Origin: an uncultured Lentisphaerota bacterium
Lineage (GTDB): Bacteria > Verrucomicrobiota > Kiritimatiellia > CAIQIC01
Reading direction: 5' to 3'
Assembly (NCBI GenBank): GCA_903889245.1
Contig: CAISWQ010000042.1
Span: 1-64,000, forward strand
Length of the DNA: 64,000 nucleotides
A model generated the notes under the pieces. That model searched no databases and had not been told where the DNA came from. It saw only the letters and a program-made list of their open reading frames with translations. Both the position numbers and the translations under genes were made by a program. Shown piece after piece: positions 5,950 to 52,185 of the stretch (its first letter is position 1; each line of letters opens with the position of its first letter).

Positions 5950-5980
5950 AATTCTCACACCTTTATAGGTGTGAGAATTT
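5950..5980. repeat. 32-bp-family palindrome upstream of the protease cluster
   Basis: A near-perfect palindrome with arms AATTCTCACACC/GGTGTGAGAATT around TTTATA. It belongs to the family with copies at 10744, 11102 and 11443. It lies in the divergent 346-bp gap between GH127 and the HtrA-like gene. Confidence 0.9.
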
Positions 5981-10658: not shown

Positions 10659-10743
10659 AAAGGGCACACCGCGGTATAGCGCGCATCCTTCCCCAGCCAA
10701 GCAGCCCAAAGAGGCGTTCAGAAGCGGCCATAGCCCATGGGGC

Positions 10744-10775
10744 AAATTCGCACACCTTTACAGGTGTGCGAATTT
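10744..10775. repeat. 32-bp palindrome upstream of the winged-helix regulator
   Basis: Arms AAATTCGCACACC/GGTGTGCGAATTT flank TTTACA. It ends 34 bp before the regulator start codon, a plausible operator position. Confidence 0.92.
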
Positions 10776-10809
10776 GGGGTAAAAGCGCTGCCGCACATAG
10801 GAGCGCAAT

Positions 10810-11460
10810 ATGCAATTGATCGTCAGTGCCTGCCGGACCCTCGCCAACCGTCTGCGGTTGCGCCTGCTGCGGGTTATCCATGACAAACCGGGGCAGCCCG
10901 TTCATGTCCTGGCGGCCGCCGTAAAGCAGCCGCCAGATGCGGTTTCGCACCAGTTGAAGCTGCTCTGCGACTACCAATTTGCCCGGGCCGCGCCGAGCGG
11001 CCGGCGGGTGTTCTATCATCCGGTCGCATCGGGCGCAACGAGCCATCCCTTCTTGCGGGGACTGAGGGAACTGCTTGACGAGGCTTTATTGGCTGCCTGG
11101 AAAATTCGTACACCTGATAAGGTGTGCGAATTTGAAACTGGGCGCTGGGATGACAGCTTGCTGAAATTATTCACCACCTATACGCATCTGCGGCGGTTAT
11201 TGATCTTGCGACTGCTTGATTCCCACGGCGCAGTGACGATCGCCAGTGTGTCCGAGCAGATTGGCATGTCGCCAGATGCCGCCTACCGCCATCTGGACAA
11301 GCTGCGCCGCCGCGGTGTGGTGGCAAGCAGCGGAACGCATCCGGTGTACTGGAGCGTGGTTCCCGTCACAGGGGCCGCCCTACGGCAGCGACTGCTCGCC
11401 TGCGTGCTGCGCGAGCTGCAACGCTCACAGACCGCTGTGGGCAAATTCGCACACCTATAA
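10810..11460 (+). CDS. Double winged-helix ArsR-type regulator interrupted by palindromes
   Basis: A 216-residue DNA-binding protein made of two winged-helix domains. Domain 1 (about 1-90) shows ANRLRLRLLRVIHDKPG, recognition helix PPDAVSHQLKLLCDY and wing SGRRVFYHPV. Domain 2 (about 115-205) shows THLRRLLILRLLDSHGAV, helix SPDAAYRHLDKLRRRGVV and wing GTHPVYWSVV. The linker (residues about 98-108, KIRTPDKVCEFE) is encoded by a copy of the 32-bp palindrome, and the last codons plus the TAA stop come from another copy. AGGAG lies seven bases before the ATG. Autoregulation through these palindromes is a hypothesis. Confidence 0.75.
   Translation: MQLIVSACRTLANRLRLRLLRVIHDKPGQPVHVLAAAVKQPPDAVSHQLKLLCDYQFARAAPSGRRVFYHPVASGATSHPFLRGLRELLDEALLAAWKIRTPDKVCEFETGRWDDSLLKLFTTYTHLRRLLILRLLDSHGAVTIASVSEQIGMSPDAAYRHLDKLRRRGVVASSGTHPVYWSVVPVTGAALRQRLLACVLRELQRSQTAVGKFAHL
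11102..11133. repeat. 32-bp palindrome coding the regulator's interdomain linker
   Basis: Arms AAATTCGTACACC/GGTGTGCGAATTT around TGATAA, in frame between the two winged-helix domains. Confidence 0.92.
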
Positions 11461-11474
11461 AGGTGTGCGAATTT
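11443..11474. repeat. 32-bp palindrome carrying the regulator's stop codon
   Basis: Arms AAATTCGCACACC/GGTGTGCGAATTT around TATAAA; the TAA at 11458-11460 is the stop. It ends 50 bp before sanA. Confidence 0.93.
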
Positions 11475-11524
11475 GGCGGGAGCCTCCAATGGACGATAGG
11501 GAGAGGTCTGCGCAGAGGAGCAAC

Positions 11525-51929: not shown

Positions 51930-52185
51930 CCGCCAATTCAATCGCACACTTGTACAAGTGTACGGCTGAAGCCTTTTTGAGTTTAACCTGTTTTTCCGGG
52001 GACATCCTGGTACCGATGTTCGGCCGGCCGTGACAGCCGTATTTTCGCGCGTCATACCAAGGCTTTTCTGCACATTCTCCACCAACTGCACGTTGCCGCC
52101 GCCCACCCGATCTGCGGCCTGAAAAACCGCACACTTGCACAAGTGTGCGATTGGATGGGGGCCGGCGGTTTCCAAGCCTTGGGCA
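51930..52185. repeat. Gene-free gap with two CGCACACTTG-type palindromes and one array unit
   Basis: CGCACACTTGTACAAGTGTACG (51943-51964) and its relative at 52128-52149 are 22-bp palindromes; a third, weaker copy is at 3687-3707. They share the CGCACAC/GTGTGCG ends of the 32-bp family. A single 19-bp-family unit (core 52172) follows. The gap lies between convergent genes. Confidence 0.8.

Follow-up and report, generated by a model that had tools for sequence, protein, structure and literature searches.

Repressors of the ArsR/SmtB family act on palindromic operators that overlap the promoter, and in this way repress their own genes. The dimer can be replaced by a single chain, as in SarS of Staphylococcus, where two homologous winged-helix halves are joined in one protein (PMC10715151). 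Genes bracketed by palindromes are known from the RAYT systems, in which the gene is flanked by REPs that are also dispersed in intergenic DNA (PMC2817692), and inverted doublets of such palindromes have been described as REPINs (PMC3116915). Here we analyze a gene that recalls all of these, located in a stretch of 64,000 nucleotides (hereafter the window) of an uncultured Lentisphaerota bacterium. Our search of the open-access literature found no description of the family to which it belongs.

The gene (10810 to 11460, forward strand, 216 amino acids) carries three copies of one palindrome. The upstream copy, CAAATTCGCACACCT-TTAC-AGGTGTGCGAATTTG (10743 to 10776), is centred 50 bp before the ATG at 10810, from which it is separated by a 33-bp gap, and is the proposed autoregulatory operator. 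A linker copy, AAATTCGTACACCT-GATA-AGGTGTGCGAATTT (11102 to 11133, centre at +308), is translated in frame as IRTPDKVCEF between the two domains of the protein, while the terminal copy, CAAATTCGCACACCT-ATAA-AGGTGTGCGAATTTG (11442 to 11475), holds the TAA stop codon (11458 to 11460) within its centre. The outer two copies have perfect 15-bp arms around a 4-bp centre, and the linker copy has one arm mismatch. This layout had been proposed in a first-pass annotation, and the placement at three gene boundaries, the in-frame linker and the palindrome-supplied stop codon are all real; the upstream position also stands, with a gap one base shorter than the 34 bp then given, and the length given as 32 bp is 32 to 34 bp when measured.

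Both halves of the protein are winged helices of the ArsR type according to Pfam and NCBIfam. The N-terminal domain (residues 1–98; 10810 to 11103, forward strand) is defined by HTH_20/HTH_24 matches and an AlphaFold2 model, and the C-terminal one (residues 113–214; 11146 to 11451, forward strand) likewise by Pfam matches and the model, in agreement with the double winged-helix protein first proposed. By sequence it belongs to the ArsR/SmtB type, with 65.8 bits against NF033788 (cut-off 55), 47 against HTH_20 (cut-off 27) and 34.9 against HTH_5 (cut-off 22). The model (pLDDT 92.6) shows the ArsR fold with its flanking dimer helices, and the single domains match CzrA, SmtB, HlyU and AntR in Foldseek and HMMER. 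Only residues 101–110, which the linker palindrome overlaps, are of low confidence (flexible or disordered). Since the aligned members hold two domains in one chain, in place of the single-domain homodimer of ArsR/SmtB proteins, we describe the family as a tandem ArsR variant. A domain search found no transposase domain in the product. Matches to Csa3/CARF entries of a defence library reflect shared winged-helix domains only. One query protein against a plasmid collection and one against a phage collection gave no hits, and an origin as a plasmid or phage gene was rejected at this scope. The hexamer coding score of 10810 to 11460 is 0.13 per codon, compared with 0.46–0.68 for its neighbours, and codon usage is therefore atypical for the host genome.

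At the level of the window, the half-site TTCGNACACCT has 11 matches with at most one mismatch, where 2.8 are expected, a number reached in none of 100 shuffles. The whole palindrome (up to three mismatches) is found 10 times in its own genome, with no hits for the reversed control, and is absent from all 55 relatives in which it was sought, three congeners included. The arrangement recurs in relatives. Seven paralogues lie elsewhere in this genome, and other genomes of the class contain homologues; in most of those first examined, one palindrome precedes the start and a second lies close to the stop, with a sequence that differs gene by gene. A scan of GTDB genomes added 80 loci in Kiritimatiellia, Lentisphaerota, Limisphaerales, Spartobacteria, Opitutia and a few other MAGs. 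The family is found in Verrucomicrobiota, Lentisphaerota and related MAGs.

Among 102 distinct genes with sequence on both sides, whose start codons were set by protein alignment independently of the palindrome, 73 are preceded by a palindrome, 48 are followed by one and 42 have it on both sides; about three in ten thus have no detectable upstream copy and half no downstream one. The two flanks of a gene agree at 20 or more of 24 positions in 35 of the 42, a level reached by 7% of between-gene pairs (median 22/24 within genes vs 14/24 between genes; observed mean reached in 0 of 10,000 permutations). Half-site shuffles, genome counts and this within-gene matching led us to reject a chance origin of the palindrome placement. 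The three boundary placements of the window gene likewise exceed chance, as first proposed, because paralogues with different palindromes repeat the pattern. The presence of gene-specific palindromes around so many relatives suggests that each protein may recognize its own, both for self-repression and at dozens of other sites in the genome. A covariation of the recognition helix with the palindrome (SQE with AACT, SQY/SQS with AAGT), in statistics that ignore kinship, is suggestive only, and we make no claim of it. In several orthologues the gene order is conserved on both sides, as in vertically inherited genes. At five loci (L051, L052, L042, L078, L057) some copies are lengthened into perfect palindromes with arms of up to 25 bp, the added outer sequence being unique to each place, as if one arm had been copied from the other. 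Where the centre is asymmetric, up- and downstream copies are inverted at L132, L030, L136 and L164, resembling terminal inverted repeats, and direct at L075.

The upstream copy is distinguished by its promoter context. In a leaderless subgroup, the palindrome centre lies 11–14 bp (typically 12) before the ATG. Among the 30 genes with a centre 10–16 bp before the ATG, a TTGACA-like -35 box (at least 5/6 matches) is found near the palindrome in 20 (shuffles about 11%), at -22 to -24 from its centre (typically 23 bp before it) in 17. Given a normal spacer after this box, the -10 element would coincide with the centre of the palindrome and transcription would begin at the ATG. Overall, such a box adjoins 25 of 86 gene-upstream copies, compared with 1 and 1 of 45 downstream copies on the two sides. 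Sequence evidence thus supports the upstream copy in relatives as a promoter operator for autorepression. The earlier idea of autoregulatory operators gains accordingly for the relatives, with their gene-specific palindromes and fixed -35 distance; upstream of the window gene we recognized no promoter. Its subgroup carries a Shine-Dalgarno sequence downstream of the palindrome, and its own palindrome centre lies 50 bp from the ATG where most of its clade have 33–37. Downstream copies were rejected as simple terminators, since the T-run of an intrinsic terminator follows 3 of 45, against a background of 4%.

The linker copy has a different history. In a tree of 87 proteins (midpoint rooting only), it is restricted to one clade, where 8 of 11 rows carry it (support 99/98); the other 76 rows have both domains and no linker palindrome. 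The two-domain architecture thus predates the linker palindrome, or at any rate does not require it, and the tree identifies the copy as a later gain in this clade of 11 proteins. This does not support the assembly of the gene from two single-domain regulators, one of two possibilities offered in the first-pass annotation, and the palindrome was rejected as a seam of domain fusion. The one single-domain case, L055 (G002:C189:43020-43331), has the N-terminal domain only and ends shortly past the linker palindrome; it looks like a truncation, with the C-terminal half deleted at or near the palindrome, and not like an ancestral form. The eight linker copies are centred 302–329 bp past the start and share one reading phase. 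Their mean match to the flanks of their own gene is 25/26 positions, vs 17/26 for the flanks of other genes and 17/26 among themselves, and none of 20,000 permutations gave so high an own-flank match. Selection on the peptide alone would not produce this agreement; a protein that binds all of the copies, or gene conversion, would account for it. The linker would tolerate such a sequence because it is the sole disordered part of a confident model.

Beyond the genes, the exact core CACACYT-N4-ARGTGTG occurs 58 times in the window's genome (G000), 35 times in G006 and 25 times in G046, with no reversed-control hits in any of the three. Across 145 genomes of the phylum, gene and core are both present in 10, the gene alone in 4, the core alone in 3 and neither in 128 (p=3e-10, in statistics that ignore kinship). 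In G000, 32 of the 39 dispersed copies examined match the palindrome of one of six own genes at 20 or more of 22 arm positions. By a home-made gene finder, and in a pattern that varies by genome, only 3 of 33 dispersed loci in G000 lie inside genes, though coding sequence makes up 88% of the window, and 22 of 30 are closer to a stop than to a start (null 44%); copies in G046 are more often in divergent regions, those in G000 near stops. Boxes of the TTGACA type are missing beside them (G000 0/39 per side; G006 0 and 1 of 31; G046 0/19 per side), and a promoter regulon was rejected on this ground. Being mostly scattered, intergenic and free of promoter boxes, the dispersed copies resemble the short palindromes known as REP elements and not the sites of a normal regulon.

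Within the window, a dispersed relative of the palindrome, TTCTCACACCT...AGGTGTGAGAA (5950 to 5979), lies between divergent genes with both arms symmetrically changed. Some dispersed copies differ by such paired changes (CGCATACC/GGTATGCG and TCTCACACC/GGTGTGAGA), so that dyad symmetry is kept. Two copies of a paralogue's palindrome (family C33:71.9k), at 51940 to 51965 and 52125 to 52152, form a doublet of dispersed copies 185 bp apart, the right half lying between convergent genes. The G000 doublets are spaced 188, 188 and 185 bp; a mobile two-palindrome composite was rejected there, as the sequences between the palindromes of the 188-bp pairs on C11 and C18 are unrelated to each other. In G006 many dispersed copies form inverted doublets with a family-specific spacing of 85–88 or 100 bp (L231–L237), the 100-bp spacing recurring in front of the gene that belongs to that family (L104). 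The G006 spacers are AT-rich and show no mutual similarity by eye, in place of the partly conserved spacer of REPINs. Several copies lie on the G006 contig that bears dnaA. The window also contains another and commoner palindrome family, TTCCAAGSCTTGGAA, at 18 places, often as close pairs and partly in reading frames (FFQGLEK-like): 1513, 1545, 6080, 8276, 8307, 12179, 12211, 12273, 15280, 16718, 25747, 25779, 26860, 26922, 37158, 43413, 56855 and 56949.

Taken together, we think it on balance probable that the gene encodes an ArsR-type tandem protein that represses its own gene and has cognate REP-like sites. Mechanistically, each of the two winged helices of a single-chain repressor would probably contact one half-site of its own palindrome, and the protein would repress its own gene from the upstream copy. 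The linker and stop-codon copies would be extra cognate sites evolving together with the upstream one, probably adding repression by roadblock or looping, and the dispersed copies of the paralogues' palindromes would be REP-like sites, built differently from the promoters. Binding, repression, looping and the way in which copies spread are what we infer from these sequence patterns. A wider proposal is more tentative, and less likely than not: a class of REP-like palindromes partnered by a non-catalytic tandem winged-helix protein, with a private set for each paralogue that includes the site in its own linker, spread or kept by binding and not by transposition.

The same layout could also be produced by a REP-like selfish or mobile unit, whose palindromes would be the ends used by an enzyme encoded elsewhere and whose dispersed copies would be offspring or scars. 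The match with RAYT genes flanked by REPs (PMC2817692), the scattered, mostly intergenic and often stop-proximal copies of G000, the absence of the window's palindrome from congeners and the G006 doublets at 85–88 and 100 bp, which recall REPINs (PMC3116915), all point this way. We nevertheless consider it unlikely: the encoded protein has no transposase domain, the doublet spacers share no similarity, several orthologues are syntenic on both sides, and the promoter geometry of the upstream copy is left unexplained. A RAYT partner elsewhere was rejected, as the 30 Y1-transposase loci inspected, drawn from six of these genomes, all lack the palindrome core.

Functional sites of a nucleoid-organizing or regulon system (looping, ParB/Noc-like, or regulated promoters), with the gene flanks as feedback sites, would account for the fixed family-specific spacing around unrelated AT-rich spacers in G006, including the 100 bp upstream of the family's own gene, for the doublets at 188, 188 and 185 bp in G000 and for the copies on the dnaA contig; yet this is quite improbable, given that dispersed copies have no promoter boxes, that the window's palindrome was found in no relative, not even in congeners, and that copies are few and form a different set for each paralogue. 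RNA hairpins at both ends of the transcript and in its middle, with a role in translation block, termination or processing, find some support in the perfect 13–16 bp stems, in the start codon at the palindrome edge of the leaderless subgroup and in the longer perfect arms of some downstream copies. Such hairpins need no shared sequence, however, and the three copies share theirs gene by gene; T-runs after downstream copies are at background, and dispersed copies do not lie at such transcript starts, making this reading highly improbable.

With the autorepressor as the preferred reading, the family links many different dispersed palindromes with DNA-binding proteins that can be identified, in phyla that have been little studied. 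It offers a natural series of putative protein/operator pairs with altered specificity, as well as a case of a DNA site maintained within coding sequence even as the site itself changes. If the dispersed sites are bound, they would represent a route to a REP-like system free of transposase, and would bear on why bacterial genomes retain such palindromes.

Compared with ArsR/SmtB repressors such as SmtB, CzrA, HlyU and AntR, the window protein shares the winged-helix fold and the sequence, and the system differs in its two domains per chain, in the extra cognate copies that occupy the linker and the region behind the gene, and in the dispersed ones. The tandem chain is also that of SarS-type regulators, SarS itself belonging to the SarA family, and we know of no palindrome bracketing among them. 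REP/RAYT systems differ in their protein, a Y1 tyrosine (HUH) transposase where a winged-helix regulator is found here, and in their copy number, which reaches hundreds where this family has tens; the likeness lies in the bracketed gene, in the inverted doublets, in the dispersed extragenic palindromes and in the presence of several families in one genome, each tied to a gene of its own.
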